Assembly: GCA_946699065.1 (NCBI GenBank)
Contig: CAMPDV010000297.1
Location: 1 to 64,000, forward strand
Direction of reading: 5' to 3'
Origin: Loxodes magnus
Taxonomy: Eukaryota > Ciliophora > Karyorelictea > Loxodida > Loxodidae
DNA length: 64,000 nt
A program made the translations under genes and the position numbers. Shown here piece by piece: positions 34,199 through 64,000 of the stretch (position 1 is its first letter; every line of letters begins with the position of its first letter). A model generated the notes under the pieces. That model saw only the letters and a program-made list of their open reading frames with translations. It had not been told where the DNA came from and did not search any database.

Positions 34199-35122
34199 TT
34201 AGGCGATCTTTGAGGAATTTCACCTCTTCCCGCCAATCACCGGATTGCCCCGGGATCAAATCAAAAAGTTTAAAAGTTTCTCCTCTCACATCCGCTTGAT
34301 CTTGTTAAGCTAGTTCCATCTTGCATTCCTCGAAAATTTCTTCTTATAAATGGTTCCAAATTTCCGTCATTCATAGTCTTTCTTTTATTCTTTTCTGCTG
34401 CAATTGTCTACCTTTTTTTTCTGTGCTTATTACTTTCTCTATTTTTCCCAGTATTGGTTCTTGAAGCTCAGAAATTCCTTGCATTTTCTTCACAAGTGTT
34501 GCTCTGAATTGCAATAATAGCATCTTTTTACAATCTTGACTGGTTTGGTCTTCTTCAAGTTCTTGTCAATTTCTTCAATCAGCATTGGGTCGCCGTTCTG
34601 CTCCTTTAGTTTTTCTTCTAATTTCTCAAGTCTGTTGTCAAATTCAGTCTGCTTTTAATGCTAATTCTGGGATTAGCTAGTTTAATCCTACGATATGTTC
34701 CAGAAAGCATTCAATTCTCGTTCTTAAGACATAAGTCCTGACTCTATTCCTTCAGCTAGGTCAAGCTTTTCCATTAATTTGTCATTGTTTTTCTTGAGAT
34801 TCCTAACCTCTTCCTGGAGGTTTAGCAATACTCTGATGAGCCATTCCATGCTCATCTGGCCAGAAGAATTGAATTCCGTCACCTCCTCCTGGTGGAAAGC
34901 AGATTTCATCTGCTTTCTAGGTTTCTCAGCTGAGATTGGAGTATCTATATGGGCTGTCTTCAATGCTTACTTCCGTTCTTCTTGTTAAATTCCAGGTTGT
35001 TAGTTCAATATAGATTAGGGTTAAGATAGAGAAGATTATTAAGTCTTGGTTTCCTACTTCCTCCCTTCCTTTTTGGCTTAGGAAGAGGTGGTATAGAAGC
35101 CTGATTCGAAACCTTCCACCAT
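34199..35122 (-). CDS. Gag-like ORF1 protein with coiled coil and CCHC zinc knuckle
   Basis: About 308 codons in one frame from ATG 35,122. Residues about 75-140 form a heptad-rich helix (LLNLQEEVRNLKKNNDKLME), followed by SQERELNAFWNISQDQ near residues 132-146. A CCHC knuckle follows: Cys201, Cys204, His209, Cys214 (CYYCNSEQHLWKKC), spaced exactly CX2CX4HX4C; the W is TGA at 34,490-34,492. The C-terminus is basic. Gag-like ORF1 proteins of retroelements bind element RNA as oligomers; this role is inferred from the family layout. It is homologous to the decayed gene at 51,919-52,806 and, around the knuckle, to gene A. A second frame downstream of residue 170 also reads plausibly, but Ser, Leu, His and Cys codons that change synonymously between copies support the knuckle frame. 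It starts 7 bp outside the inverted-repeat element and is in phase with the reverse transcriptase frame across it. Confidence 0.8.
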
Positions 35123-35129
35123 TTTAGTG

Positions 35130-35133
35130 TTAA
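35130..35133. repeat. TTAA target-site duplication, left
   Basis: TTAA within GTTAAC at the outer edge of the left arm; the matching copy is at 46,338-46,341. Confidence 0.8.
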
Positions 35134-35134
35134 C

Positions 35135-35794
35135 ATTAATTTTATTATTTATAATTCTTTTAAATTAGTTAAACTAATCTATATCATCAATTCTCTTTCA
35201 GTTTTAATTATTGCCTATATAAAAGTGCGCAAAGCTTATTTTAAATTATAAGCAAGAAATATACATTTTTCTATGTTATTAATTCATTTTTAAACATAAT
35301 CTTTAACTCTTCCAAACTCAAGTATTTTGCTATTATAACTAAGATTATTTTTTAATATTAAGTAATTAAAAATCCTTTGCTTTTCATATACTCAAAGCAA
35401 GGAAAATTAAAAAAATACCGTGAAATAAATAAAGGAATAAGGAGTGATACATATAAAAACCATAACTGCAAAATATTAGTTTGAATAAATCAGATGAATA
35501 TAATAAGATATAATTATTTGCTAAGCTGCTTAAGAATTCATTAAAGATCTCAACCTAAATAAAATAAATTTTAATTTCTTTTAGTTTAAGCTTTAAAAAC
35601 AAATTTTATAAAATGCTTTATAATCTTACTAAATATAATTTTAAATGATATTTTACTTTTATACACACAAAAAATTTAAGATTCTCTACATTTATTTAAA
35701 ATTTTGCAAAATCTTTATTTTTTAAATTTAATATTTTTAATATCTTAAAATACATTTATAAATATTAAGTTTAAAGTTTAAAAAAAAGAGAAAA
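35135..35794. other. AT-rich leader of left arm
   Basis: Runs between the element end and gene A. Almost pure A/T, without recognisable genes; it could hold the promoter and 5' untranslated region of gene A. The mirror is 45,679-46,337. Confidence 0.5.
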
Positions 35795-36587
35795 ATGGAG
35801 AGTTGGAACAAAGGTTTTCTTATCGAAAAGATTACTCGTAATACTACTGATCAATTCTTCTAAAATTAACAAACATCAACTAAGATTTAAAAGAAAAAAT
35901 ATTGCTAAATATAAGAAGAAAAATAACTACCTGCAAAAATTCCTAAAAAGAGGCATACATTTAATCAACTAATGAATTTAGACAAGGAATAACTTGTGGA
36001 GATTATTTTCGACTACACTGATAAAGTCGAGAATCTCGAGCATTATGTTATCAGTTTATAACAAGATTTATAAGATCATGTGGACGATGAGAAGTCACAT
36101 ACTGAATTTGTTACAAAATAGGATATCAATAACAAAAATCAAGAAATAGAATGTGATATTGTTAGACTAGATGAATAAACGGGAATAGATTTTAAAAAAT
36201 ATGAAAATTCCTTTTAGCAAGTTAAAGAAATTAAGCAAAGGTTAGAGAAATTAGAGAGCTAATAGCCATAAAAAAATTCAAGATTCAATGATAATAGAAG
36301 AACAACCAACGACTTAAGAAAAATACTTCAAAAAAAAGTGCTACATATGCGGCAGTCAATATCATCTTTGAAGAAGATGTTAGGGAAATAAGGAAATTAG
36401 AAAAAAGATTTGAAATGAATTGACCATGTTTTATCCTTCTTCGAATGGTTAATTATGACGTAAGAAGATAAATCCAAGACCGTTCAGAAAGCTCGGAAGT
36501 GAATTTGGGTGGAGACACCGAGGAGTCCGAGACCCTGTAAAAGGTAATACAGGGGGTTATGGATCTTTTAAGGGAACACTCCATTAA
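35795..36587 (+). CDS. Gene A, left copy: gag-like coiled-coil protein with CCHC knuckle (one frameshift)
   Basis: Starts MESWNKGFLIEKITRN. An N-terminal basic region is followed by an acidic helical part (LVEIIFDYTDKVENLEHYV, later QVKEIKQRLEKLESQQ), then in the +1 frame IIEEQPTTQEKYFKKK and the knuckle CYICGSQYHLWRRC (Cys codons 36,339, 36,348 and 36,378, His 36,363). The knuckle Trp is TGA at 36,369-36,371. After it come KIWNEL and a Gly/Arg/aromatic-rich tail (LGSEFGWRHRGVRDPV). The frame change sits near A7 at about 36,272 and is present in both arms. Between arms, two knuckle Cys codons differ only synonymously (TGC/TGT), which supports this frame as selected. Likely an RNA- or DNA-binding structural protein of the element; its end at TAA (TAG in the other arm) is a guess. 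Confidence 0.7.
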
Positions 36588-36589
36588 CC
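36492..36589 (+). other. GC-rich hairpin cluster at 3' end of gene A, left
   Basis: Four potential hairpins lie within 100 bases: CTCGGA/TCCGAG (36,492-36,497 with 36,526-36,531) enclosing GGTG-GAGA-CACC (36,508-36,519, a GNRA-type loop); CCCTGTA/TACAGGG (36,533-36,539 with 36,548-36,554); and GGTTATGGA/TCCATTAACC (36,555-36,563 with 36,580-36,589). They overlap the coding frame of the gene A tail. A structured 3' end used for packaging or priming is possible. The same structures occur in the right arm. Confidence 0.5.
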
Positions 36590-36876
36590 TTAAAATTTTT
36601 AATTTAATTTAAAAAGTTTAAAGATTTGCATTATAATATCTAGATATACCAAAGAAGTTCTTAGATAAAAAAAATTATGCTTTTATTAAATTTTGTTCTT
36701 GTTAACAAATTTATAAAAATAATAGAAGATTACGATCTAGCAGAAATTATTAGAAAATGAGATTTTGAAATATTGTAAAATTTAAATGAGAAATTAAATC
36801 TTAATTATAACTAAAAGTGATATAATTTTATTTAATGAAAGAATTAATTATTTTACGTGATTTCACTTTTATTTGG

Positions 36877-37557
36877 TTAATCACAAATCAAAAGTTTAAA
36901 GTTAATTAAAAGAGACTTCATATTTGCTTGGATCTTGTTTATCATACGTTCTAAGCATTTTTAATCTTTTTTTTCTGAGAGTTTCTTTTAGATCGATTCC
37001 CATTCATTTCTTATTAAATTCGTTAATTGCATGCTATATGTTTGGAGCTTCTTTGTTTAGCTGGAGTATTTTTTACTTTTGTAGATACCGTCTTGATTGC
37101 AATAGATCCTGAAAATATTTTCCCGTTTGTTTTCTACTATTTTCTTTTATTTTTATTAGAATTAGAAGCAGCTTCTAACTTATTACCCTGGTCGCTTGCA
37201 GTATCAACATCTCATTATTTTCCAATAGAGAATATAATTTGTTGTAGTCTGTTGCTCTGCATCCATCAGATCATTCATCTCCATTTTTTGCAGTAATATG
37301 CTTTCAGTTAACTCTGCGAATTTATTAAATTTTTTCTAATTATTTTATTCTAGATAATTCCTAGTTATTTATTTTCAATTTTCTTTCTTATGAGTTAATC
37401 ATTAGTTTTCAATTTTTCTTTCGAGTTCTTATACAGTTCTTAAAAGTTTAAAATTTTCTAGTTGCTTGACTTGGAGTTCTTAAAGTATTTTTTATTGATC
37501 GTAGCTTGACTAAGATGATTCTTTTTGAGAAGAGATTTTTTGTAAGTAATTTTCCAT
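36877..37557 (-). CDS. Gene B, left copy: coiled-coil protein with CWYC...C zinc-knuckle-like motif
   Basis: About 227 codons in one frame from ATG 37,557 (MENYLQKISSQKESSQ). Residues about 22-105 are helical and Gln/Glu/Lys-rich (ILQELQVKQLENFKLL; ELTESILLQKMEMNDLMDAEQ). Residues 117-130 read CWYCKRPGQQVRSC, which matches the CX2CX4HX4C retroviral-type knuckle spacing, except that the His position (125) is Gln, encoded TAA. Trp118 is TGA. A Lys/Arg-rich C-terminus follows. It converges with gene A, leaving about 290 bases between them. Probably a nucleic-acid-binding structural protein; the end at TAA 36,877-36,879 is not certain. Loss of the knuckle His would weaken zinc binding. Confidence 0.68.
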
Positions 37558-38807
37558 TTTATATTAATAATTTTTTAAATGAATTTTAGTTATTTTATAA
37601 AATGAAAAGAAAGCAAAAATATTTGATTTTATTAAAATAAAGCTTCACAGTAAAATTTAATATAAAAGCTTTATAATATTTTTGCTTTTAATTATTAATT
37701 AAAAAATATTTTTTGTAAAATAAGAAGATTTATTTCTAACTGGAGAAGAAGCATTTAATAGCATTAAATTTGAAAATAATTTTTAATATAAAAGCATTTG
37801 TTTAATTTTATAGTTGTAAATTATAAAGCAAGATATTTAATAAATTATAGACATAAAATTATTTATATTTATGCTTTATAAATAATAATTTATTATATTT
37901 AATTTTAGATTCTTTATTTTATATTCAAATTAATTAATCTATTTATTATTTCTACTTAATTTTGCTATATTTATTGCTAATTAAAACTGGGGAATTACTC
38001 TTATTTAAATCTTAATAATATTAAATTTATAATTAAAAACTATGGTAAAGACATTTATTTTATATTTTTATACAAACTATTTAGATGTAAAGGGTTATGT
38101 GAAAATTTAAATCTTTACTTAAAAGTTATCTGTTTAGTTAAAGTCTAATTTTAGCAGCTTATTCTTGAGATTTTCATTAATCTTTTATATTTTTCTAGGT
38201 TTTAAATAATTTGCTTATAAATTGATTACCATTTGAATATTTAGACAACTAAGACATTAATTATATAAATATCAATTAACTCTTTAGTTATATTTTTCTA
38301 TTATAAATTTCGTTAATAAACTTATCTAGCATTTAAGTTATTTTTTATATTTTCTTTTTTATGAAAAATAAATTTAACTTTAGCATATTAAACTTATTTA
38401 TATATTATATTTTAAGCTATAATCTTACTCAATATTTATTAAACTGGCTTATATATTTTTCTGCTTTTGAAAGCATCTATTAAGAAATTAATTAAATATG
38501 CTTAAAAGGAACTTAAAGAACTATTAAAACATTTTTGGAACTATCTTTTCAAGCAAGATTAAGTTTCTTAATATTTATATATTTTTATTCAATAATAAAA
38601 GAAAAATAAGGTAATAATATGATTATTTTATGATTATAATTAAATCTTTTAGTCAAGATATAGTGTTACTTTAATTTTATATTTATATCATTTTTAATAT
38701 ATATTTTTGTTTATCTCTTTAATTTATTTTAGTTAAAAAATATTTTAAATTTAGTCATTTTTTAGCTTAACTTCATTATGTTTTAAAGGTTTATTAATTT
38801 AATTTTT
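37558..38807. other. AT-only inner part of left arm
   Basis: Nearly pure A/T, without gene signals; the mirror is 42,662-43,913. It may be regulatory or spacer sequence. Its high conservation between arms reflects the recent arm duplication and not necessarily function. Confidence 0.6.
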
Positions 38808-38978
38808 TTTTCCTAAATTAATTTGATTTTAATGTAGTTATAAAAATTAATAATCTTCTCAGATAAATTTTATAATAATTAATTAAAATAGCTTTAATTT
38901 AATATAAATCTTTAAAATTAACTGTTATTTATATTATTTTAAGATGGAACATAATATAAGTTCTCGAGAATTTTTATT

Positions 38979-39751
38979 ATGAATTTTGAAGAAAGACAGA
39001 TAAAGAATTACGTTAAACAAAAAAGAAACAATAAAATAGCTAGTTCAGTATCATAAAGTAAAGTTATGACAGGTATTGGTGAGCCAGAACAAGAAATTAT
39101 AGAATTTCCCACAGAAATCCAAAAAATGATTGAGAATTTGAAAAAAATAATTAAACAATAAGAAAAACTTTTTACAACTAAAATCAACAAATAAGAGAAC
39201 TATTCACGAACATTAATGAGAATAATAACGAGATGGATATACTTAAAATGCAACTCATCGAAAATAAACTCGTGACCCATGAGAAAAATTACTAAATTCT
39301 CAATAGTATTCAAAACTAAATTCAATGATGGTAATTGAAAAAACCTAAATTGAAGTTTCGAAAAATAGAAAGTAGAATCTTAATCTGGTAATCCAAAATT
39401 CGAATAGAAATTACAAAAAATAGAAAAAATTATTTGCTTCCCACAGTTTAGCTACACCTATAGTAAAAAGATGATGATATCGCAATTTTTTGGTGTCATC
39501 TTCTTCGAACTGCTGAAAATGAAGAAGACTAAATAAAAGAGAACAACATAGAACTTGATACCAACTAAATCAACTTTGAATAACGGAAAATGGTATATAC
39601 AAATAAAAATTTCCAGTGCGCAATAATATAAACACGAAGTGGTAACCTTCCACTAATAAAAAAAGTCATAGAATACAACCGTGTAAAAAAATTTATCTGC
39701 AGGTACCTGGTTGAAAATCCAGGGATAGCAAATCTTTGTGTATTTAGTTAA
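38979..39751 (+). CDS. Gene C: diverged gag-like coiled-coil protein (frameshifted)
   Basis: Lies in the single-copy centre. It starts MNFEERQIKNYVKQKRNN, then a helical part (EIQKMIENLKKIIKQQEKLF). A frame change near 39,180 leads to IRELFTNINENNNEMDILK and later NLPLIKKVIEYNRVKKFICR. One TGA (in IQ-W-WQLKKPK, about 39,326) falls inside. Around 39,470 the codons CAT CTT CTT CGA align with the HLWRR part of the gene A knuckle, but the Cys positions are not kept (DDDIAIFWCHLLRTAE). I infer a decayed or specialised relative of gene A that has lost zinc binding. Its borders are approximate. Confidence 0.5.
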
Positions 39752-40340
39752 ATATATATAGTTAGAATTTATTTAAGATTATCTGAAGCATAAAGATATA
39801 AATGATAAATGATTTAAATAATAAATATTAAAGTATTTTATAATTTTTAAATATAATTATTTAATCTTATAATTATAGAGAAAAATTTATTTATTTATTT
39901 ATTAAAGGAGTTCTAATTTTAAAAGTTGCTTAAAATTAAATATTTTTTTAATTTTTATATGAAATAATAATTGTAATTTGCTGGTTTTTGTAATAACAGC
40001 AGGTGTAGAACTGAATAATGATATTTATTCATACTGATTAATAAAAATATAATTAAGTAAATGTATATAATTATCGAGATATAAAATGTATATAAATGAA
40101 TTTGTCTAAAGTAAAAGAACTCAAAATTAGATTAAAGAAAAACAAATTAGAGCAATCTATAAATTAATTAATTTGGAAATTTTAAATCAAGGATATAAAA
40201 GATAATTTTAATAATTAATTAACTTTAAAATTTATAATATTTTACATAGATTCTATTACTTAGTTTATTTAATTTAAAAGCTATAGAAGTATTATTTAAC
40301 TAAATAATACTTCTATAGCTTTTACTATATTATATATAAA
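39752..40340. other. AT-rich spacer with short inverted repeat
   Basis: No gene seen. At about 40,279-40,323 the sequence AAAAGCTATAGAAGTATTAT is followed after a short gap by its near-exact inverse ATAATACTTCTATAGCTTTT. This could be a strong hairpin in RNA or DNA just before the GC-rich block. Confidence 0.6.
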
Positions 40341-40740
40341 ATGGATGTCGTCCGCGTCAGCCAAACTAGTAGGTAATCTGGTGCAGTGTATACTGCATTG
40401 CGAGTAATCTCGTACTAGATGTCACCACGGGGAAGGGTGGATAAGCTCTGTTGAGACGTACCTAACTTACCCCGAGGGTTCTCTCTAGCAGTATGAAAGT
40501 TTGACTGACGGGCCTTCTAATTACCGACTTAATAACTGTCTCTTATTTGGACCTTATTCAAGAAGACTGAAGCATTTGACTACATGTTTTAGAATAATTT
40601 TTAATAAGAAGATTCCCCATTTGGAGAAGCTGACATGACTCATCGGACCTCTAGAATTTAACAAGAAACATTAGTATATTTTTTAATATTAAATATTAAT
40701 ATTGAAAGAGCTGCGCGCCAATGAGGTGCTATGCACTCTA
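40341..40740 (+). other. GC-rich block: structured RNA or small protein gene
   Basis: An island of ordinary GC content in near-pure A/T. RNA reading: a closing stem CGTCAGCCAAACT (40,355-40,367) with AGTTTGACTGACG (40,498-40,510; one mismatch in 13) encloses TGCAGT-GTAT-ACTGCA (40,382-40,397), CGAG-TAAT-CTCG (40,401-40,412), and CGGGG/CCCCG and ACCC/GGGT pairings. A further GTGC-TAT-GCAC hairpin lies near 40,729. Coding reading: ATG 40,341 begins MDVVRVSQTSRQSGAVYTAL, stays varied in composition for about 110 codons, and has TGA in CWDVP, VWKF and DWRAF. No known RNA or protein family is recognised. The nested long-range stem favours RNA; the two readings are not exclusive. Confidence 0.5.
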
Positions 40741-41264
40741 TAATCATTTTTATTTATTTATTATTTATTATTATATTTAAAATTTCATCTAAAATACACC
40801 AGTATAAATATGATTTTTAAATTAAGTTAAAAAATTTAGGTTAGATAGAAAATTAAGATTAAATTTTGAAATTAACTAGCTTAAAACTTCATTTAAGAAA
40901 AAAATAAATCAATAAAATATTAGGTCATTGAATGGATATTAATTCAGACATAATTATCTTAAATATTGTCCAAAAATAACTAAATTAAAATGTTTTGAAA
41001 AATGAAATCGAACCAAAAACTGACAGGCATTTTATAATAACTTTTCCAAGCTTTATAACTTTGAAATAAAAGTATTTAATTAATTTTAAATTAATAAAAT
41101 ATTTAAAGTAAATCTAATAATTTAGATCATAATGTGATAATAAAAAGAATTCTATAAAACTCAAAATACTAAATAAAAAAAATTATAATTATTATCTATA
41201 AAAAAAATAAATACATTAATTACTGTAAATAGAGAACTCAAAGTTATTTGGAATTAATGAAAAA
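40741..41264. other. AT-rich spacer
   Basis: Between the GC-rich block and gene E. I see no gene, RNA or repeat in it. Confidence 0.55.
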
Positions 41265-42345
41265 ATGTATTTATACTCTGACCGTAATAAGTATGCTACT
41301 CCCTAACATTTTAAAATGCTTTGCCGCTTGTTTATGTTATCTAAGGCTGAAGGAGATGAGCATGTGACTTGAATTGTAATGAGAGAAATATGTAGTGCTA
41401 AAGAAAAATAAACAAGAGCATGTGTACAATGGCAAGAAAGATTTTACAGTCACCTATATCTCTGTTTTTAATAAGTCCTGCTGTATAGATTTCAACAAAC
41501 TTCCATTTAAACATATTATGATAAATTTTTTCAGTTTCTACTTTAAAATATGAAATGAAATTATGAATTATCCAGAATATGATATAAAAAACTCTTTGAA
41601 TGCAATTGGAACTAAAATAATTTATTTCTTTAATAAGTAAAAAAGATGTTTAAGTTTATGGAAAAAATAATGAAAAATATATAACGATTTACAACTAACT
41701 TATTATTGAGAACTTTGTAGAAAAAAAATAAGAAACAAATTTAATTAAGAAGCAACTTTACGCTATAGAAACATTCCACCGAACATATAACAGAGAGTAA
41801 TTTGAATGGCTTTAGAAATGTTAAGAAATAAATTATACTGAACTTAGCAAGAAATATAGGCAAGAAATCTTCTCACTCTTTAAGTTGCAAATTCATCCTC
41901 ATAGTTTTCAGTATGACTAGCATTTAAGTCATTATTCTGTGAAAGTTAGCTTTGTATGCATGGAAGATAAGAAACATATTAATAAATCTTCAAATTTTTT
42001 TGCTATTTGGACTTACTTAGAAATCTTTCGGATAAATTCTTTGATAAAAATTAGTAAAAAATGAAGCATATGACTAAATATACATAAATTAACAACTTAT
42101 TTCTAATCTAAAAGAAGAAATGAATCTTCAATTTAAGGTTTTCATAGAAAGTTACAAAGAAAAAACAATTAATATTTATAAAAAACACATCAAATCAGAC
42201 AGAGTTTTAGTTAGAACAAAAAAATGTTTTATTAGCAATGATGAAAAGCAAAAGCAATAAGAAAAAAAAGAGAAGATAAATTTAACATAAATAGGCTTAG
42301 CCTTGCATAAAACGAAGTATATGATACAAATTTGAAGCTTAAAAC
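41265..42345 (+). pseudogene. Gene E: unknown protein, coding signal across shifted frames
   Basis: Coding-like composition (many Glu, Asp, His, Tyr and Trp, more G/C than flanks) moves between frames. It starts MYLYSDRNKYATPQHFKMLC from 41,265, continues in the next frame with NGKKDFTVTYISVFNKSCCI near 41,430, then in the third with GKNNEKYITIYNQLIIENF from about 41,660, AIETFHRTYNREQFEWLQKC near 41,770 and KYRQEIFSLFKLQIHPHSF. A last part reads NLQFKVFIESYKEKTINIYK to about 42,345. The changes fall near A-runs. TGA occurs in HVTWIV and KIWNEI. No family is recognised. It is the best place in the element to look for a diverged mobilisation enzyme. Either a pseudogene or a gene with very short introns; the borders are approximate. 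Confidence 0.45.
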
Positions 42346-42661
42346 ATAAATTTTTTTAATAATGTAAAATGTTAGAAAATATTTAAAAATAATAAAAGAT
42401 TGAGACTAAATAATAAAATATATTTTTCATAAAAGTTAATTTTATATGGCTTATAAAAATATTTGCATAATTTAAACTTTATCTCTAAAATTTAAGTTTT
42501 AAATTATAAATAGTTAAAAATAATTCGAAATAATATAAAAAATAACACAAAAAAATTTATAATAAAGAAAATTTAATGAAGAAAGGTATTAAAATTATAT
42601 TTAAAAATAAACTTAAAATTTAAAATTTAAAACTAAAGAATTATAATAAGCTAAAAAACAT

Positions 42662-43913
42662 AAAAATTAAATTAATAAACCTTTAAAACATAATGAAGTT
42701 AAGCTAAAAAATGACTAAATTTAAAATATTTTTTAACTAAAATAAATTAAAGAGATAAACAAAAATATATATTAAAAATGATATAAATATAAAATTAAAG
42801 TAACACTATATCTTGACTAAAAGATTTAATTATAATCATAAAATAATCATATTATTACCTTATTTTTCTTTTATTATTGAATAAAAATATATAAATATTA
42901 AGAAACTTAATCTTGCTTGAAAAGATAGTTCCAAAAATGTTTTAATAGTTCTTTAAGTTCCTTTTAAGCATATTTAATTAATTTCTTAATAGATGCTTTC
43001 AAAAGCAGAAAAATATATAAGCCAGTTTAATAAATATTGAGTAAGATTATAGCTTAAAATATAATATATAAATAAGTTTAATATGCTAAAGTTAAATTTA
43101 TTTTTCATAAAAAAGAAAATATAAAAAATAACTTAAATGCTAGATAAGTTTATTAACGAAATTTATAATAGAAAAATATAACTAAAGAGTTAATTGATAT
43201 TTATATAATTAATGTCTTAGTTGTCTAAATATTCAAATGGTAATCAATTTATAAGCAAATTATTTAAAACCTAGAAAAATATAAAAGATTAATGAAAATC
43301 TCAAGAATAAGCTGCTAAAATTAGACTTTAACTAAACAGATAACTTTTAAGTAAAGATTTAAATTTTCACATAACCCTTTACATCTAAATAGTTTGTATA
43401 AAAATATAAAATAAATGTCTTTACCATAGTTTTTAATTATAAATTTAATATTATTAAGATTTAAATAAGAGTAATTCCCCAGTTTTAATTAGCAATAAAT
43501 ATAGCAAAATTAAGTAGAAATAATAAATAGATTAATTAATTTGAATATAAAATAAAGAATCTAAAATTAAATATAATAAATTATTATTTATAAAGCATAA
43601 ATATAAATAATTTTATGTCTATAATTTATTAAATATCTTGCTTTATAATTTACAACTATAAAATTAAACAAATGCTTTTATATTAAAAAATTATTTTCAA
43701 ATTTAATGCTATTAAATGCTTCTTCTCCAGTTAGAAATAAATCTTCTTATTTTACAAAAAATATTTTTTAATTAATAATTAAAAGCAAAAATATTATAAA
43801 GCTTTTATATTAAATTTTACTGTGAAGCTTTATTTTAATAAAATCAAATATTTTTGCTTTCTTTTCATTTTATAAAAATAACTAAAATTCATTTAAAAAA
43901 TTATTAATATAAA
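42662..43913. other. AT-only inner part of right arm
   Basis: Mirror of 37,558-38,807. No gene seen. Confidence 0.6.
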
Positions 43914-44595
43914 ATGGAAAATTACTTACAAAAAATCTCTTCTCAAAAAGAATCATCTTAGTCAAGCTACGATCAATAAAAAATACTTTAAGAACTCCAA
44001 GTCAAGCAACTAGAAAATTTTAAACTTTTAAGAACTGTATAAGAACTCGAAAGAAAAATTGAAAACTAATGATTAACTCATAAGAAAGAAAATTGAAAAT
44101 AAATAACTAGGAATTATCTAGAATAAAATAATTAGAAAAAATTTAATAAATTCGTAGAGTTAACTGAAAGCATATTACTGCAAAAAATGGAGATGAATGA
44201 TCTGATGGATGTAGAGCAACAGACTACAACAAATTATATTCTCTATTGGAAAATAATGAGATGTTGATACTGCAAGCGACCAGGGTAATAAGTTAGAAGC
44301 TGCTTCTAATTCTAATAAAAATAAAAGAAAATAGTAGAAAACAAACGGAAAAATATTTTCAGGATCTATTGCAATCAAGACGGTAAACTACAAAAGTAAA
44401 AAATACTCCAGCTAAACAAAGAAGCTCCAAACATATAGCATGCAATTAACGAATTTAATAAGAAATGAATGGGAATCGATCTAAAAGAAACTCTCAGAAA
44501 AAAATGACTAAAAATGCTTAGAACGTATGATAAACAAGATCCAAGCAAATATGAAGTCTCTTTTAATTAACTTTAAACTTTTGATTTGTGATTAA
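43914..44595 (+). CDS. Gene B, right copy: frameshifted relative to left copy
   Basis: Mirror of 36,877-37,557, starting MENYLQKISS at 43,914. It carries Ala-to-Val (GCA to GTA) near 44,212 and a net one-base insertion at about 44,383 (GGTAAACTAC), which shifts the frame after the knuckle. The knuckle itself, with TGA for Trp and TAA at the His position, is unchanged. The left copy is therefore the better candidate for a functional gene. Confidence 0.6.
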
Positions 44596-44881
44596 CCAAA
44601 TAAAAGTGAAATCACGTAAAATAATTAATTCTTTCATTAAATAAAATTATATCACTTTTAGTTATAATTAAGATTTAATTTCTCATTTAAATTTTACAAT
44701 ATTTCAAAATCTCATTTTCTAATAATTTCTGCTAGATCGTAATCTTCTATTATTTTTATACATTTTTTAACAAGAACAAAATTTAATAAAAGCATAATTT
44801 ATTTTAATTAAGAACTTCTTTGGTATATCTAGATATTATAATGCAAATCTTTAAACTTTTTAAATTAAATTAAAAATTTTA

Positions 44882-44979
44882 AGGCTAATGGAGTGTTCCC
44901 TTAAAAGATCCATAACCCCCTGTATTACCTTTTACAGGGTCTCGGACTCCTCGGTGTCTCCACCCAAATTCACTTCCGA
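44882..44979 (-). other. GC-rich hairpin cluster at 3' end of gene A, right
   Basis: Mirror of 36,492-36,589. The CCCTGTA/TACAGGG, GGTG-GAGA-CACC and CTCGGA/TCCGAG stems are all retained. Confidence 0.5.
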
Positions 44980-45678
44980 GCTTTCTGAACGGTCTTGGAT
45001 TTATCTTCTTACGTCATAATTAACCATCCGAGGAAGGATAAAACATGGTCAATTCATTTCAAATCTTTTTTCTAATTTCCTTATTTCCCTAGCATCTTCT
45101 TCAAAGATGATATTGACTGCCACATATGTAGCACTTTTTTTCGAAGTATTTTTCTTAAGTCATTGGTTGTTCTTCTATTATTATCGAATCTTGAATTTTT
45201 TTATGGCTATTAGCTCTCTAATTTCTCTAACCTTTGCTTAATTTCTTTAACTTACTAAAAGGAATTTTCATATTTTTTAAAATCTATTCCCATTTATTCA
45301 TCTAGTCTAACAATATCGCATTCTATTTCTTGATTTTTGTTATTGATATCCTATTTTGTAACAAATTCAGTATGTGACTTCTCATCGTCCACATGATCTT
45401 ATAAATCTTGTTATAAACTGATAACATAATGCTCGAGATTCTCGACTTTGTCAGTGTAGTCGAAAATAATCTCCACGAGTTATTCCTTGTCTAAATTCAT
45501 TAGTTGATAAAATGTATGCCTCTTTTTAGGAATTTTTGCAGGTAGTTATTTTTCTTCTTATATTTAGCAATATTTTTTCTTTTAAATCTTAGTTGGTGTT
45601 TGTTAATTTTAGAAGAGATTGATCAGTAGTATTACGAGTAATCTTTACGATAAGAAAACCTTTGTTCCAACTCTCCAT
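44885..45678 (-). CDS. Gene A, right copy: gag-like coiled-coil protein with CCHC knuckle (one frameshift)
   Basis: Mirror of 35,795-36,587, starting MESWNKGF at 45,678. The same frame change at the A-run occurs (T7 on the plus strand near 45,200), so it predates the arm duplication or was copied by conversion. The knuckle Cys codons are TGT and TGC where the left arm has TGC and TGT; the final TAA is TAG. These are the patterns expected of a translated sequence with TAA/TAG as Gln. Confidence 0.7.
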
Positions 45679-46337
45679 TTTTCTCTTTTTTTTAAACTTT
45701 AAACTTAATATTTATAAATGTATTTTAAGATATTAAAAATATTAAATTTAAAAAATAAAGATTTTGCAAAATTTTAAATAAATGTAGAGAATCTTAAATT
45801 TTTTGTGTGTATAAAAGTAAAATATCATTTAAAATTATATTTAGTAAGATTATAAAGCATTTTATAAAATTTGTTTTTAAAGCTTAAACTAAACAAATTA
45901 AAATTTATTTTATTTAGGTTGAGATTTAATGAATTCTTAAGCAGCTTAGCAAATAATTATATCTTATTATACTCATCTGATTTATTCAAACTAATATTTT
46001 GCAGTTATGGTTTTTATATGTATCACTCCTTATTCCTTTATTTATTTCACGGTATTTTTTTAATTTTCCTTGCTTTGAGTATATGAAAAGCAAATGATTT
46101 TTAATTACTTAATATTAAAAAATAATCTTAGTTATAATAGCAAAATACTTGAGTTTGGAAGAGTTAAAAGATTATGTTTAAAAATGAATTAATAACATAG
46201 AAAAATGTATATTTCTTGCTTATAATTTAAAATAAGCTTTGCGCACTTTTATATAGGCAATAATTAAAACTGAAAGAGAATTGATGATATAGATTAGTTT
46301 AACTAATTTAAAAGAATTATAAATAATAAAATTAATG
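45679..46337. other. AT-rich leader of right arm
   Basis: Mirror of 35,135-35,794. A 71-codon open frame at 45,871-46,086 is hydrophobic by composition only and has no support as a gene. Confidence 0.5.
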
Positions 46338-46341
46338 TTAA
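46338..46341. repeat. TTAA target-site duplication, right
   Basis: TTAA within GTTAAC at the outer edge of the right arm; beyond it the reverse transcriptase frame continues without disturbance. Confidence 0.8.
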
Positions 46342-49300
46342 CAAAGGTATCTAATTCTCCACATATGCAAATCTCAGAGTATTTGATTTTAAAGTGTCTT
46401 TGTTATAAGTCGTATTAAAAATGATAGTAAAAGGTTCTAAATTTATAAATAGAAATTATTTCTCTAATCATAAATTTATTTAGTTTCGTATATGTATAAA
46501 ATGGAAACTATCTTGTTTCTTTATTAATATCTTCAAAGTAAAAGTGTGCAGTTTACATTGATCTCATCTTTTCTGTAGCATCTTAAAAGAACTTCTCTTA
46601 GATTTTGTTATAAGCTTTACTCAAAAATAATTTGCTGTCTTCAATATTCTATACATCTATTTCAAAAAGTTAAGTTAATTTCTCCAAGTTTTTAAAATAT
46701 TTCAGATTAGCTATTTTTGTTTTGTTAAATAAAAAGGTAATATCAGATTCAGGATTTGTTTATGTTTCTTATCATAATTTTACGTAAAACTTTAAATATC
46801 TCATTGCTATGTAGTACTCAAAAGGTATTCAGTTCAAATCAATAAAGCATGATTCATTAAACGTTGAATTTGGACTTTAGAATGCATATCTTGCTACTTT
46901 TCTTTAACTAGTATGTATGTCTTTTTTTATTTTTCCAATGCCCCTTAAAATCGTCCATGGAATAACTTCCGAGCCATATTCTGTTTTAGGGAGTTAAAAG
47001 ATTTGAAAAATCTACTTAAAGTTGTAAGGAGTGATATTCTAATATTTGGACAATTATATCAAGGATCCATTAACACATTTCTTATATTTTTACACTATTT
47101 CTTTGCAATGGACTTTATAATATTCGTTTTCATGGAAAGTATATCCTAAATAAGTTATCCTCTTAGATCTTTTAATTTCTTAATTATTCAAACTTATGTT
47201 AACATTAATGTCTTCTTTTTTTTAATTCTTAGTTTTAAAGCATATAAAATCACACTTACTAACATTTATGCTCAGTTTTACTCATCCAAATACTTTACAC
47301 GTTGCTTTAATCAATAGATTCATATTATCTTCATTGGAAATCAATAATAAATTATCTGCCCAAGCTTTAGTAACAAATATGCGTCCACAGATTTTAAAGC
47401 CAAATCGTTTTTAATAAGTTTCTAAGTACCTGATAACAATATCGTAAAATATAATAGATAGAACTGGACCATGGGAACTTCCTTACAATACTCCATTACT
47501 ATATTATAAATTTCTTAAAAGAGTACCATCTAAAATGAATCTAATATCTAGATTAAGATGAAATGATTCGAAGCAGTTTATTAGGGCAAGAGGTAGTTTT
47601 ATTCTGCGTAAATGATGAAACAATAGTCTTCTGTTAATAGTGTCAAACATCTTTTCTACATCTATAAGAGTTGTAAGTAAGTGCTTTTATTTCCCCCATC
47701 TTTTGTGTAAATCAATAATTGATTATAAAGTTCAGACATGATGCATTGTTTGTCTACTCTTTAGAAATCCTTATTAAGAGGGGTGCATAATTTTACGCTA
47801 ATAAATATACCCATAGAGTCTTTAAGTTAGTACTTTATCATATATTTTTAAAATTACATTTATGAGCGCAATTGGTCTTCAATTTTTTCAATCGCTCTTT
47901 GATTCTTTCTTGTAAATTGGAAGAATTCTTACTTATTTAAGTTAATCAGGTATTTTTTACTTTCTCAACATATTATTAATGAACTTTAACAATACAAAAT
48001 GAAATTTCTTATTAGCGTATTTAATAAGTTCTGCTTTTATGCCATCTGCTCCTGATGATTTATTATTCGCTAGTCCTTTTATGGTTTCCTGAATTTCTTT
48101 AAAACTAATAAGATCTAATCCTTACAAATAAGAAGCCTATTATTCTTTTACAAAGGTGCAACTTTTGAAAATATTATCAATCCTTTAATTGCTGCTTTTT
48201 AGTTCTTCTTCATCAATAATCTTATGTTTGTCAAAAACATTACTTTCCCTATTATTAATAAATTAAGCAAATCCTTCTTGATCCATATGCATATAGTTTC
48301 TTTTCCTAGGGTTTAAAAGTTTCCTTGCTTATTTAAACATTTTTTAAGGAGACTAATTCATTAATTCTCTATTTTTCTTAGCCTATTTTTACTTATATTA
48401 TCAGTAATTACGTTTATATCTATTAAATTTTTTTGTTTTTGCTTATGCTAGCTATATTACTTCTTGATTTGTTCTTCCCTGCTATATTAACGCATTTTAA
48501 TAAGCTATTTATGCTTATTTGGCAGCATTAAAACTATTGATTATCCTTCAAGAAAGTTTATTATAATTAGTATTTTAAAGAACTTATCCAAGTACCAGAT
48601 TAGCATTATTATAGAGAATTTGCAGAATATAATTGTATTAATCTTCTAAGTTATTTTCTTCAATTGCTTCAAAGCCAACTAAACATCCGTTAAATGTATC
48701 CTAATATTCTTCTCTTATTATCATATTTTATAGTTTCTATATCTTAAAGTTAACTCTAGGAGCAAGTATTGGCGGGTCTCTATTAATGTTTTAAATATGT
48801 AACTATAGTAAAATTGGGAAGTGATCTGTGTCAAGTCCACTACTAGGTAAAGTTATAAAGTTAGAGAATTGATTGATGTTAATATGATAATTAGATATAA
48901 CATAATCATTGCAATAAGTTCTATAATTAGCCCTACTTCTAAAAGTATCGAAAATAGGATTGTTAATTATCTATAAATCTTATTCTTCAATAAAATTTTG
49001 TAATCTTAAACCGTTATCTTATTAATTCTGTACATAATTGCTACCATAACCATGTAGCAGAGCGTTAAAGTCTCCCATTAGTATTATTCCTTTATCTTCT
49101 ATTACTCTAAGGATATTTTCTAAATGTTAATATGATTAATCTTTAAAAGATATTGGCTTTTCATTTGTTGGCATATAACATGTCGCAAAATATATGTTAT
49201 TAGCTTTAATTACAAGAAATCTATCATCTTGTCCTCCAAAATCAATTTCAAATTAGCCTGAGTCCAGATCATCTTTAACAAGAAGACATACTCCACCAGC

Positions 49301-51835
49301 TCTTGTACTTTAATTACAATTTTTATAATAGGTTCTATATCCGCGAATCTATATTGGAATAAAGTCTGAATGTTATCATGTTTCATTAATGGAAAATATA
49401 TCAATTTAATGTTATAAAGTAAACTGTTAAATACTATATTATTTAGTAGATATTTAATTCATATTGCAGTGAGATAAGTTTAAAATCTCTCTATTTGATC
49501 CTCCTTTAAGTCCTGGGTCATAAATGCAGAGGACTTTTTGACCATTTTAAGTTTAAATATGAAGTAAATTAGGAGCTTATCGTATTGTATTTCTATAGCA
49601 TATTATAATAAATAAAGTCGATGAATCATATTCTTATAATAACTATTTATCTATTTTAATTGGTACTGAGTTTCCATCACATGTCGCACGATTTAATCTA
49701 GAAGATAAAGTAATGAATCTATTTTCTATAGTTGTTAAGAGATTCTGCTTTTATCATTATTTTGATCGTAAGTATTGTATAAATTAATCGCTTTTAAAAT
49801 TATACTTCTTTAATAACTCTTCAATATCAATATTTTACATATAGAAATTATGTTATGTTGGACTTAAAAATGCTTAATTAAGTTATGCTTCTTTTCAGTT
49901 TCTCTTGCCATTTTATGCTATCGAAATCTAATTAGTAAAAAGAGGTTGAACTTAGTCATTCTTGATTATAAAATCTGATGTATCTCTATTTTAATTTTAT
50001 TATGCATAATATAAATCACTTAATTAAATAGTCTAACTAGCTTAATTTTATTTTTAGTATTTTAGCATTTATTGAGACATATCTTCTTTCTTTTGTTTTT
50101 AAAGTTCTGATATTCTTGCATATGCATCAAGTTTACGTTCAATTTCACGTTCATAATCTTGTGTCAATTAAGAATATCTAATGTTCAGATTATTATAAAC
50201 TTCTTACATTTTAAATTCATTTTATTTAAGATTTTATAACTCTTAAAAGGAAAGATCAAGTTATTAGTTAATAATTTCCGTTATAGTTCCGCGATCATTC
50301 TTATAACAACATGTTTCAGTTTAAATTAACTAGTTAAAAGCTTCATTAACAACAGATTAGGAATTGAGTTTAATCATTTCTACTTCTGATTAATCTTAAT
50401 TTTGATAACAAATGTTCTCTTTAAATTAATAATCACAAGATTAATCTTAATTATTTCAATCTAGTTTAGTTAAACTTTAAATTTCATACTAAAACTTTCT
50501 GTTCTTATCGAAATCTATTGAACTTTCATTCTCTTTTTCATTTTTGTGTATAATTTTACGTTTTTTTGAAGGAAATGTATTCCAGTTTGATTGGCATTTT
50601 CTTTTTAAATAGTTAAATTTTTTTTCAAATATAAAATTAATATTAATAATACTATCTTGAACTTGAGGCATATTAATTTGATTCTATTAAATTTTGGACC
50701 AAGGCTTAGTTTCTATTTGGAATAATTTCTCCCTTAATTCTCTATTAGTCCTCAATAATTGTTTTTCTTTTTCTTCTTATTTTTAACTGCTACTAATGTA
50801 ATTAAGATTTAATTATTAATAATATTACATCAGATCCTAAAAATTTTAATCTTAGGAGTTGACTTAACAAAACTTATCAAATTATTAATTTTGTATAGTG
50901 TTAGTTGTATTTGTTGTATTGTCTTCACACTATATTATTTAGGTTTAAATTTGCTTATCTAAACTTAATCCTTTTGCTTGATTTTATTCTTAAAAAATAG
51001 GTTAAAGTGCAACATATTGTTCTTAATTGTTGTTTAAATACAATAAACAATTTTATTAATTCTATTCTAGCAAACTCTAAATAACTAATTATTTTTATTA
51101 TAATTATAATTATATTCATAGACTTTAATCAGAGTTCTGTTTACTTTTCTTATCATTTTCTTAGCTTATTTATAGAAAACTATTAAATAAATCCTGATAT
51201 TAGATAGTCAAGAATTAGATAAGTTATTGTTGTATTTGTTCTCTAGTAATTGCCTTTTTTAATTAGATTTCACTATCTACTTTTTAATCAGAAATATTTA
51301 TAAGTTAAACTTCAATATTGTTTAAAGTATTTAATTATGGTTATTTAATGGTATTTTATGCTTAATTCTGTTAATTATTTGAAATAATATCTTAAGTTAT
51401 ATCTTAAGTTATCTTAATATCTTCTAATATTTCTAGCTCTTTAGAGGATTCTATATCTTAATTATACATATCTTTTATAGATATTTTTTAAATCTATGCC
51501 GGTAACAAGGCGGGAAACTTATTCTTTTTTCTATAGGAGTATTATTTTCCTTTTAAGGTTTTCTACAATAAATTCCCACGTTTTAGAGCTGTACTTATTT
51601 GCTTTAAAGGAATTCGAAGGTATTTGTTTATAGGTTATTAGTTACAGCTTCTTAATAAATTTCTTAATAAGTTCATAATTTCTTTAAGTCTCTAAAGTTA
51701 AATATAGTCTAAATCTATTCCTTTAATGTTATCTAGCACCTGCCTATGCTAATCCTTTTAGAAAGCAGCTTCTTTATTTTGAAATAAAGAAGAGTCGCTA
51801 AGAATAAATTCTTGCGATTTTATTTATTCCTCCAT
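46338..51835 (-). CDS. Non-LTR retrotransposon ORF2: APE-type endonuclease and reverse transcriptase
   Basis: One unbroken frame of about 1,830 codons from ATG 51,835 (MEEQIKSQEFILSDSSLF). Residues 1 to about 760 are polar, with an NLS-like PSKKRKIIHK near 422. The endonuclease follows: CNMNQIS about 790, INETW with Trp820 as TGA (49,376-49,378), RAGGVCLLV, MGDFNA (Asp922) and TDHFP (about 1004). The reverse transcriptase follows: KNWRPIAL with Trp1319 as TGA (47,879-47,881), HPSQQGFLKSRQT, LIDVEKMFDTI (Asp1392), NGVLQGSSHGPVLS and AWADNLLL (Asp1494), where YADD is usual. The C-terminus reaches CICGELDTF (1823) and is cut by the TTAA element. Such enzymes nick DNA and copy element RNA at the nick. 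The N-terminal region is unusually long. WADN in place of xADD casts doubt on activity. Confidence 0.93.
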
Positions 51836-51918
51836 TTTTTTTCCTATGAAAATAATATTATTTGCTAAAATTTGGTTATTATATTTTAAAAATATAAATT
51901 TAATTTAAAAATTAATAT
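51836..51918. promoter_or_regulatory. 83-bp divergent intergenic region between ORF2 and gag copy
   Basis: Only 83 bases separate the start codon of the minus-strand ORF2 (51,835) from that of the plus-strand gag-like gene (51,919). The stretch is AT-rich. A shared two-way promoter is the simplest reading if both are transcribed; no defined motif is seen. Confidence 0.4.
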
Positions 51919-52806
51919 ATGTCAAAAATTTTCAAGGCTCTAAAAAATCAGGATTTAACGGCATCCTGGAAAGGCTAGGTTTAGGAAAAGGGTACCAAAA
52001 ACATCGCCCATCAGGATAAGTCTCCCACTTCTGAAGAAAAGCCTAAGAAATAGGTAAAAAATATAATGTGCTAGGAAGTATCGAACCTCACAACATATTA
52101 GTTAATAAGCTATGATTTAGCTGATTAAAGTGGTGCTAAACCTCTAGGAAAATGTTAAAAAGTTGAAGAAAGATAATAGGAGATTGATAGAAGAGCTCTA
52201 AATTGTAGAGGGAGAAGAATCGAGACTCATGGCCTAAGAAAGAGAATTTAGTACCTTTTGAAATATTTCACAAGACCAGAAAAGATGGTCGTTACACTAA
52301 CAAATGAAGGAGAAAGAACTGCTCAACAAAATACAAAAAATAGAAAGAAACAGAAAAAATTGCAGCGTTAAATGGAACTACAAAAATAAGGAAATGATCA
52401 AATGGTAATTGAAGGAAAAAAGAACTCAAGATTTAAACCTAAAAAAGAATCAAAAGATGTTATTATTGTAACTCTCGAACATATTTATGAAAAAAGATGT
52501 TAGAATCTCCAAAACTTTAAATAAGAATACTGAAACTATTAGAAGAAGTTGGAGAATAGAAAGAAGATACAACAACAGCTAAAACTAAAAAGAGAAAAAA
52601 TTATATTGAAACAACTTTGAAATAATATACAAAATCAAAGATACCAACCATTAGCTAGGCAAAATGATATTTCAATGAAATTATGCATAGCAAGGAGAGA
52701 AACTTTAGAAGCATTTAACTTTTATATTTAGACTCTAGAACAATCTAGATGCTGATAGGAAATAGGTTGAAATTCCTCCAAGAACCCCAAACATTTAATT
52801 TTGTAT
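51919..52806 (+). pseudogene. Decayed gag-like ORF1 homologue
   Basis: Starts MSKIFKALKNQDLTASWKGQ. KSPTSEEKPKKQVKN aligns with DTPISAEKPRKQMKS of the gene at 34,199-35,122. After a frame change near 52,090, IKVVLNLQENVKKLKKDNRR aligns with IRVLLNLQEEVRNLKKNNDK, and EREFSTFWNISQDQ with ERELNAFWNISQDQ; here Trp is TGA (52,259-52,261) against TGG, and Gln is CAA/CAG against TAG/TAA. A further change leads to the knuckle relic KRCYYCNSRTYLWKK, where His is Tyr, TGA at 52,488-52,490 keeps the Trp position and the last Cys is shifted out by an extra A. WNSSK near the end matches the partner. At least three frame changes and a lost zinc ligand mark a dead copy; it points outward, opposite to its partner. 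Confidence 0.8.
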
Positions 52807-61800: not shown

Positions 61801-62354
61801 AAAATAAAATTTTTAAAGTATTTAAGTAGAAAAAATTCAAAAGTTTATCTTTTCAGATATATCTTAGGTATATAAAAAAATAAATACCAGATATAATTGA
61901 AGTTATACAAAGAAAAATTAAAAAAATGAGTTTTAGAAAATAATGTATGTAGATCTAAGAAAAATTCAACGATTCTTTTAAAAAATGATTACTATTTATT
62001 TAAAAGTTAATGCTTCTAAATAAATTAAAACTGAAGGAGTATATTTAAAGCTTTATAGTAATATCATTTGATAATTTTAAAGCCAGATTTTATTAATTGT
62101 CATCTTTCCATAGTTAAAATTCCAACTTAAAAATAGTAAAATAATTTTTTAATTTGAACATAAACTTTAAATTCTAGTCAAAGATATTTTTAGATTTTAA
62201 TATCCTCACAAGATAAAAAATTAATAATTTCATTTACGAAATTAAGTTACTATCTTTTAATAAGTAGATCATAAATAAAGATAAAAGGCTTAATTATAAA
62301 TAAATTAAATTAAGCATATTTAACTTAAAAATTTATTTAAATAATAGTTTATAA
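52807..62354. other. AT-rich region, no gene recognised
   Basis: About 9.5 kb of nearly A/T-only DNA on the far side of the retroelement. No GC-rich island, repeat array, RNA gene or recognisable protein motif was found on either strand. In a code without reliable stops, absence of composition signal is the only evidence against genes, so short AT-biased genes could be missed. Confidence 0.6.
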
Positions 62355-64000
62355 ATGTCAGCATCGAAAGAGTGTTTGTCAGCTTTAGTATTCACTAACT
62401 TAAATTGAGCTTTGTAGGAGTTTGGCATTGCTAGAGAAAAAGCCAGCTAACTTATTTGCGATTTTTAAGCTCTTTAAAACCTGGAATTCGTTAATCTAAT
62501 CAAAAATAAAATTTTAAAACTCAAAGACTCTAAATCTAGGTATCAGATATCTGAAAAAGTAGGACTTCCTCTTAGTATAGTTAATTAAATAATTTAAGAA
62601 TCGTAATCACTTAGGGAAGAATAACTATAAAGTAAAAAATAAAAAGATAATAAAATATTAGAGCTTTAAAGCAATAATTCTATACAATTAAACTATTAAG
62701 ATTAAAATAATCGAATACAAACTATTAGCGAAAAAGAAAACGAAACTTAAAAAATATAGGAAGATATTCTTTAGTGTTATGAAGAATTCTTAAAAGTTGA
62801 AGAAAAATAAGAGAGCACAAATAGTAATAATAAAAGATCGAGAAAAGAAAACAAAAAGAAAATAATAATTTTGCCTAATTAAAAAAGCCTAAATATTATT
62901 TCTAAGTAGGATTCTTAAAATAAATAAAATAATATTTAAAGTATAAATAAAACTTTAAATTAAGAAATTGAATTATATTAAATGATTTAAAGTTTTGAGC
63001 AAAACTAAATAGAAAATTTAAAAAAATAATAAAGCCAAAGCTTGTTAGAAAATAAAGAAATAATTCGCTTAACTAAAAGTGGTGTTGTTTATAAAGAACC
63101 TGAAAATAAAGAATTATTTGCATGTTTATACTGTGATTAAAACTACAATGATGGAATCATTCTCTCAAAACATTTCATAGATCGTCATGTTTAAGAAAAA
63201 TTAATTGATCTTTTCTGTCCCTTATGTTAGAATCTCACTTTCGAAAATATTTCTATATACAACTAACATTTAGAACATCATCAAAAGCAAGGAGAAACTA
63301 TTAAATATAATTTATAGCAAATAAAAACATTTTAATTCTCTTAAACCAAAAAAGTTACTTAATTAGCTGAAAAAGAAACTAACATGACGAAAGTAGAAAA
63401 ATAAGAAAAACTTTAAAAAAATCGAGGAACAGAAAAAATTTCCAAAGATAAGATTGAAAATATTTCAAGTGATGAATCTATTCTTCTAATAGAAACAAGA
63501 AAATACTAGTGTGTTGAATGTGAGAAAAATTTTCCAGAAGAAGAATAATTTATTTTGCATCAAAAAACTCACGAAAAGAAAAATTTAAAATACAAACTTA
63601 TAACTAGCAAAACATATAAAGAGCTAGAAAAAGAAAATACTACATTAAAATATGGCATAATTATTTACAATAAAGATGACAGTGCTGCTTATAAATGCAA
63701 AGAATGCGAAAGCTTTTTCAAAACAAATAAAAAGCTGTAAAAACATTTTGACAGGAACCATCCTAATGTCTAACTTAACACTATAAAATGCTCAGTATGT
63801 TAAGGTTAATTTAACGAGAGAAAAAATCTACTCAAACACTTAACTGGACATTCTATTAAAGAATAGAAGAAGTTAGAAATAACAGATGCATAAGAAGAAA
63901 GCTTAATCAGTAAAAAAATTAAGACTACAAATGATAATTAATAAGAATCTAATTAATTATAAGAGGAAATAAAAATTGATATTAAGGACAAAAAAAGAAA
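62355..64000 (+). CDS. C2H2 zinc-finger protein with N-terminal helix-turn-helix-like region (partial)
   Basis: One continuous frame of 548 codons running off the window, starting MSASKECLSALVFTNLN. Codon 18 is TGA (62,406-62,408). The next ATG is near codon 205, so a start after the TGA would lose an ordered-looking N-terminus; reading Trp is simpler. Residues about 20-85 (ALQEFGIAREKASQLICDFQ; YQISEKVGLPLSIVNQIIQ) resemble helix-turn-helix DNA-binding helices. A long Gln/Asn/Lys-rich linker follows, where most Gln are TAA/TAG. Five fingers have their first Cys at residues 257 (CLYC..H.H), 288 (CPLC), 386 (CVEC), 448 (CKEC) and 479 (CSVC), with CX2CX12-13HX3-4H spacing. This suggests a nuclear DNA-binding regulator or a domesticated transposon-derived factor. 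The acidic and basic tail is incomplete here. Confidence 0.88.

Follow-up and report, generated by a model that had tools for sequence, protein, structure and literature searches.

The retrotransposons of a Loxodes magnus contig are very probably written in the ambiguous genetic code of their host

The stretch analyzed here (hereafter, the window) comprises the first 64,000 nucleotides of contig CAMPDV010000297.1 from the karyorelict ciliate Loxodes magnus (assembly GCA_946699065.1). Its GC content is 22%, and a search of the window for open reading frames (ORFs) under table 11 found none reaching 150 amino acids. On the minus strand lies a long interspersed nuclear element (LINE), that is, a retrotransposon without long terminal repeats (non-LTR), with a single long frame that runs through UAA, UAG and UGA alike (Table 1). 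This frame, whose first ATG is found at 51,835 and whose codons are numbered from 51,838, encodes a Gln-rich N-terminal region, an APE-type endonuclease and a reverse transcriptase (RT), in this order; PDB matches of the RT include human LINE-1 ORF2p and R2 proteins, with a best E of 2e-20, and the 3' part of the ORF has been lost at the edge of an inverted repeat (position 46,343). Endonuclease and RT in one frame, together with a shared 3' end and a simple-repeat tail, identify the element as a LINE. We consider it very probable that the retrotransposons of the window are written in the code of their host (table 27), in which UAA and UAG specify Gln, whereas UGA specifies Trp inside ORFs and acts as stop at their end.

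Table 1. Features located in the window (positions on the forward strand).
Feature	Position	Strand	Description
Satellite, 103-bp unit	6-22,884		222 copies at 97% match
CCHC gag-like ORF, FWNISQDQ with TGG	34,203-35,147	-	Frame apparently shifts after the knuckle (by eye)
Large inverted repeat	35,128-46,343		Arms ~3.7 kb, 98.9% identical; spacer 3.85 kb
Diverged C-terminal RT fragment	41,461-41,757	+	31% identity; inside the inverted-repeat spacer
LINE, single frame	46,350-51,838	-	Non-LTR retrotransposon; 1829 codons counted from 51,838
RT domain	47,135-47,902	-	PF00078 RVT_1, E 5e-23
RT column 280, codon 1519	47,282-47,284	-	TGA in 24/24 tabulated loci
N-x-R-P-I, codon 1320	47,879-47,881	-	Subfamily 1: TGA in 17/18 (1 gap); subfamily 2: TGG in 5/6, TGA in 1/6
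Endonuclease domain	48,812-49,195	-	PF14529 Exo_endo_phos_2, E 7e-9
Endonuclease, second profile	48,890-49,414	-	PF03372, E 2.5e-7
Trp of N-E-T-W, codon 821	49,376-49,378	-	TGA in 12/12 fetched upstream loci
Related gag-like copy, FWNISQDQ with TGA	51,949-52,788	+	~40% identity to the copy at 34.2-35.1 kb; decayed
Host-like C2H2 zinc-finger gene	62,355-64,000, past window end	+	zf-C2H2_4, E 3.9e-8; ATG at 62,355

The LINE frame contains 13 TGA and 5 TGG codons, as well as 170 TAA/TAG and 41 CAA/CAG codons, TAA/TAG thus representing 81% of its Gln codons. The share of TGG within the TGA/TGG pair (0.28) lies just above the range of G shares shown by the remaining NNA/NNG pairs of this ORF (0.00-0.27), as expected for one more synonymous pair. 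In the RT, the QG and QQGF boxes have TAA for their glutamines, and column 213 is TAA in 23 of the 24 genomic loci described below. Two of the TGA codons fall in the motifs N-E-T-W and N-x-R-P-I, which we take to be Trp or aromatic sites in LINEs; among PDB relatives, the residue at the N-x-R-P-I site is F in L1 and W in R2. These were the two TGA sites of the LINE frame cited in a preliminary description of the window, which had proposed that UAA and UAG are read as Gln and UGA as Trp.

A search of the whole assembly (705,730,643 bases in 7843 contigs) with the RT piece returned at least 84 matches, with 83 of 15,437 candidates scored, and most of them fall into two subfamilies approximately 30% apart in protein sequence. 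Among these matches, 34 span the query from position 1 to 518, of which 31 carry exactly 6 in-frame TGA codons; the second subfamily is represented by 23 matches at 67-68% identity, with 5 TGA in 21 of them and 6 in the other 2. Codons were tabulated for 24 of the 84 RT matches (18 of subfamily 1, including the window copy, and 6 of subfamily 2) and, upstream of the RT, for 12 loci (6 per subfamily). The window frame aligns without gaps with copies L026 and L027 in its N-terminal and endonuclease parts, and with most RT loci. Beside one subfamily-1 copy, a third and more diverged RT-bearing element was observed (L020, 3677-4995; ~54% and 38% identity).

In the tabulated loci, 13 columns are occupied by TGA or TGG in both subfamilies. 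Five of them are predominantly TGA in both (codons 695, 821, 1146, 1317 and 1519) and one is predominantly TGG in both (codon 1493, with TGA in one copy of subfamily 2), while the remaining seven show TGA in one subfamily and TGG in the other (codons 648, 1197, 1320, 1369, 1381, 1628 and 1670); at codon 1197 the window copy itself encodes Arg. The ratio of nonsynonymous to synonymous substitution rates (dN/dS) between the subfamilies was 0.068, 0.083 and 0.071 in three pairs, with synonymous sites near saturation (proportion of synonymous differences, pS, 0.71-0.73). Since TGA is fixed at many positions of ORFs kept at a dN/dS of about 0.07, these codons are not stops, and table 6, in which UGA is the only stop, is ruled out by the same fixed TGA codons under strong purifying selection. 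Thus, the reading of UAA/UAG as Gln and of UGA as Trp put forward in the preliminary description is upheld by the LINE copies, both at the 13 TGA/TGG columns and at the TAA-encoded glutamines of the RT boxes.

The assignment of UGA to another amino acid, either Cys as in Euplotes or Arg, has to be weighed against this interchange. Indeed, TGA in the fixed columns alternates with TGG, and not with TGT/TGC or with CGN/AGR, although in one subfamily-2 copy codon 809 is TGA instead of the CGA found in the others. Two host genes found in fetched sequence also bear on this point. In an RBR-type gene, where TGA occurs in an FC-TGA-QC motif, the IBR domain scored 45.4 bits when TGA was read as W, compared with 42.5 for R, 42.4 for X and 41.0 for C; a PDB search with this gene matched only its second IBR part, the TGA site lying outside. 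In an MHYT-domain gene with three TGA codons in the part examined, the scores were 83.9 bits for W, 80.3 for C, 77.9 for R and 76.6 for X. In view of the interchange with TGG and of these domain scores, a Cys or Arg assignment appears to us extremely improbable. The MHYT gene (L039, 4766-5611 and beyond; G000:C98) matches PF03707 with E 7.6e-24 when UGA is read as W, the domain being named for bacterial signalling proteins, and it is possibly of bacterial origin by acquisition.

A different objection is that the host uses table 6, as Tetrahymena does, and that the in-frame TGA codons are nonsense mutations, from TGG or from other codons, accumulated in dead copies. Signs of decay are indeed visible. 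Within subfamily 1, dN/dS reached 0.88-1.07 in four pairs (a fifth pair had no synonymous change), and within subfamily 2 it was 0.50 and 0.75 in two pairs with 3-4 changes, values which suggest near-neutral decay of inserted copies. Some copies have gained a lone TGA, for instance from TCA, TAA or TTG, as decay predicts, several fetched copies are frameshifted, and frameshifts also affect the gag-like ORFs of the window. What this explanation would have to account for, however, is the presence of identical TGA codons in dozens of copies, five columns being kept and seven swapped with TGG between subfamilies whose proteins have remained under strong constraint.

The strength of the TGA counts was evaluated against a null model of decay (300 runs) in which all 18 TGA/TGG codons began as TGG and substitutions followed the observed mutation spectrum, as obtained from 15 of the 18 subfamily-1 RT loci (L018, L022 and L023 were excluded for indels). 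Under this model, approximately 696 substitutions are needed to yield 13 TGA codons, with a mean of 1.5 (maximum 6) of these TGA falling on those 18 codons; such a number is incompatible with the conserved 5.5-kb frame. Fourteen columns have TGA fixed in one subfamily only (8 + 6), and 7 of them face TGG in the other, which the decay spectrum would produce with a p of about 0.002. Opposite the other 7 are S, T, S and K in subfamily 2, and Q, L and L in subfamily 1. If the five shared TGA codons are taken as Trp, 9 of the 13 window TGA codons lie at Trp columns, with a probability of 1e-5. This count is in part circular: the sister subfamily has TGA at five of the nine columns, and calling these Trp rests on conservation. 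Thus, the better-than-chance support for the Trp reading comes mainly from the copies, and less from the number of TGA codons at Trp columns.

Several observations weigh against the Trp reading. Compared with subfamily 2, the 13 TGA codons of the window face TGG in 4 cases, TGA in 5 and other residues (S, T, S, K) in 4, two of the latter lying in the N part, which is aligned at only ~26% identity; strictly counted, 4 of 13 facing TGG is within the decay null (p 0.11). Likewise, the three fixed subfamily-2 TGA codons without a Trp counterpart lie opposite Leu, Leu and Gln. In the MHYT gene, the TGA columns correspond to H/Y, A/Q/L/P and R/P/Y, and not to Trp, in five bacterial relatives (5 aligned of 20 listed, from 146 plasmid records with a match), and the sole conserved Trp of this gene is encoded by TGG. 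Finally, the window LINE copy is itself decaying: 17 of its 518 RT codons differ from the codon that most other subfamily-1 loci have, none of these changes making a TGA, and its catalytic box reads WADN, with Asp changed to Asn, the second aspartate being kept in 22 of the 24 loci. This copy is probably dead, its lineage having been under strong selection. Taking both sides together, we regard the explanation by pseudogene decay under table 6 as highly improbable. An assignment of the element to a Tetrahymena micronuclear genome was likewise rejected, in view of the genome size and of the TGA/TGG swaps.

The 3' end of the ORF was examined in 18 RT loci out of 24, L001 being truncated by the repeat and L017, L018, L019, L022 and L023 being omitted. 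In 17 of the 18 the frame is closed by a TGA specific to the subfamily, and the terminal TGA codons of the two subfamilies stand at homologous places. In subfamily 1 (11/12 copies) the protein finishes with an acidic tail ending in EHEQ, followed by the terminal TGA and by further in-frame TGA codons 5 and 6 codons on, whereas in subfamily 2 (6/6 copies) the terminal TGA comes after DIDQEN; the remaining copy, L016, has a different 3' part. In one copy of each subfamily, the distance from the terminal TGA to the tail is 81 nt (subfamily 1) and 60 nt (subfamily 2), with a shared motif inside, and the tail is a simple repeat, (TAAT)n or (TTA)n, rather than an encoded poly(A).

In most copies, the region preceding the stop is devoid of the three codons. 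In 10 of the 12 subfamily-1 copies the last TAA/TAG lies 33-39 codons upstream of the stop (10 codons in L021 and 21 in L016), and in the six subfamily-2 copies 29 codons upstream of it, so that in 16 of the 18 copies the last 28 or more codons contain no TAA, TAG or TGA, and Gln and Trp are encoded there by CAA/CAG and TGG only. All Gln codons of that zone are CAA/CAG, there being 4-6 of them in these ten subfamily-1 copies and a single one in subfamily 2, and two nearby Trp codons are TGG in 11 of the 12 subfamily-1 copies. These numbers are small, and the copies, belonging to two related subfamilies, represent few independent cases.

UGA is therefore sense and apparent stop in the same ORF, that is, ambiguous. 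The claim of the preliminary description that all three stop codons are sense holds for their sense use, and has to be qualified for UGA in this respect. A code of the Condylostoma type (table 28), in which each of the three codons is both sense and stop, shares with the window the sense use of UAA, UAG and UGA; nevertheless, the ends examined, those of the LINEs of both subfamilies and of the host RBR gene, are apparently at TGA and none at TAA/TAG, which makes table 28 very unlikely here. Three direct observations point to table 27: the frame is uninterrupted, TGA and TGG replace each other under purifying selection, and two subfamilies have a terminal TGA near their 3' end.

The preliminary description had listed TGA codons at 34,490, 36,369, 47,879, 49,376, 52,259 and 52,488, and each of these six sites carries TGA on the strand it had given. 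It had also aligned the FWNISQDQ segments of two gag copies, which are found as TTC TGG AAC ATA TCG TAG GAT TAA (minus strand, 34,705-34,682) and TTT TGA AAT ATT TCA CAA GAC CAG (plus strand, 52,256-52,279); all eight codons differ between them and all eight are synonymous if UAA/UAG is Gln and UGA is Trp. The CWYC motif that it had described in a gene B is present as C-TGA-YC in a minus frame of 36.4-37.7 kb. The gag pair alone is weak evidence because both copies are decayed or error-bearing, the second (51.9-52.6 kb) showing more than one frame change; the minus-strand LINE frame with its genomic copies is the stronger evidence. By eye, the frame changes of two gag-like ORFs (~34,490-34,520 and 36,300-36,345) coincide with, or lie close to, short runs of A next to the CCHC knuckle, and may reflect decay, assembly error or a programmed shift alike. 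The gag-like ORF at 34,203-35,147 is probably ORF1 of another element.

The host-like zinc-finger gene at the end of the window does have TGA as codon 18, as had been noted; TAA/TAG are frequent in its frame, and the next in-frame TGA occurs at 64,857. This codon 18 comes without a homologue by which its residue could be judged.

The preliminary description had further attributed the scarcity of called ORFs in the window to the genetic code. This is correct in part, the rest being due to the satellite that fills the first third of the window and to little coding potential elsewhere: a scan for coding potential, for which the LINE itself served as training set, marked only 34.2-36.6, 44.9-52.8 and 62.4-64.0 kb. 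The plus-strand frames of the satellite are free of TGA for about 7650-7700 codons, and likewise free of TAG, and consequently give rise to artificial ORFs under one-stop codes.

The large inverted repeat holds gag-like ORFs, truncating the LINE frame on one side and adjoining a gag-like ORF on the other. Its ends read TGTTAACATTAATTTT, and no target duplication was clear by eye. The diverged RT fragment in its spacer has a TGA that matches LINE codon 1689, and Lys at the place of codon 1670. ARAGORN, run with the bacterial code, detected no tRNA in the window, and Rfam gave no match in it at gathering scores. A run allowing introns on the window and 36 loci made a single call, a tRNA-Phe whose intron would measure 904 bases; it overlaps the LINE frame and was judged spurious. 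Relatives were also sought in viral contigs, and none was confirmed.

For the Loxodes code, Seah et al. (2024) cite Seah et al. (2022). Seah et al. (2024; PMC11441545) described the 706-Mbp macronuclear assembly of L. magnus and assigned it table 27, with UGA as Trp or stop. They reported a median of 41 bp for the 3' untranslated regions (UTRs), tandem repeats that amount to 231 Mbp, and LINEs of 5-6 kb in at least two families which appear complete. Hence, the placement of this code among those of karyorelicts in the preliminary description agrees with what is in print for the species, and this code had been published before, as had the occurrence of LINEs in L. magnus; the finding is real and well supported. 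In host transcripts, UGA is the sole stop, and UGA and UAA are depleted ~20 codons before stops (PMC11441545). What is added here is the lack of TAA, TAG and TGA before the stop in LINE copies, which fits the depletion in these transcripts. Our literature search found no discussion of UGA within the LINEs of L. magnus in the excerpts of that paper (PMC11441545).

Karyorelicts with table 27 (Parduczia sp. and Loxodes) share with the window UAA/UAG as Gln, UGA as Trp inside ORFs and as stop at their end, short 3' UTRs, and the depletion of sense UGA (and of UAA in Loxodes) before stops, with no difference in kind. UGA is commoner in the LINE, where it makes up 0.71% of codons (13/1829) and exceeds TGG, than in Parduczia, in which its frequency is 0.120% (PMC4967479). 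In Condylostoma magnum (table 28) all three stop codons are likewise sense; unlike here, UAA and UAG also terminate, and a search reported there detected no nuclear tRNA-Trp(UCA) (PMC4967479). Blastocrithidia also reads UGA as Trp, but UAA/UAG as Glu, with UAA serving as stop as well, and has a tRNA-Trp(CCA) with a 4-bp stem and a Ser-to-Gly change in eRF1 (PMC12153298).

According to the model of Swart et al. (2016; PMC4967479), such codons are translated by default, and it is proximity to the transcript end that triggers termination. For the host code, a near-cognate tRNA-Trp would win over eRF1 at UGA, whose default reading would be Trp; termination would prevail only near the transcript end, where proteins bound to the 3' region, such as PABP, may aid eRF1. 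The LINE follows the same positional rule, with its short 3' UTR and, in most copies examined, the stop-codon-free end of its ORF. That the element bears its own copy of the host context distinguishing stop from sense, with its terminal UGA 60 or 81 nt before a tail that is not encoded poly(A), is a tentative and rather doubtful suggestion. If the LINE RNA is not polyadenylated, UGA termination in karyorelicts would need closeness to the 3' end or AU-rich tails, and not poly(A). LINEs of this kind, present in many copies and having numerous internal UGA codons, a defined 3' end and a terminal UGA that is fixed, are convenient natural reporters for the Trp/stop duality, a small benefit for the field. 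More generally, a reading of the raw sequence recovered a real ambiguous code, and mobile elements, which offer a long selected ORF in many copies, constitute a line of evidence for the genetic code that is independent of transcripts.

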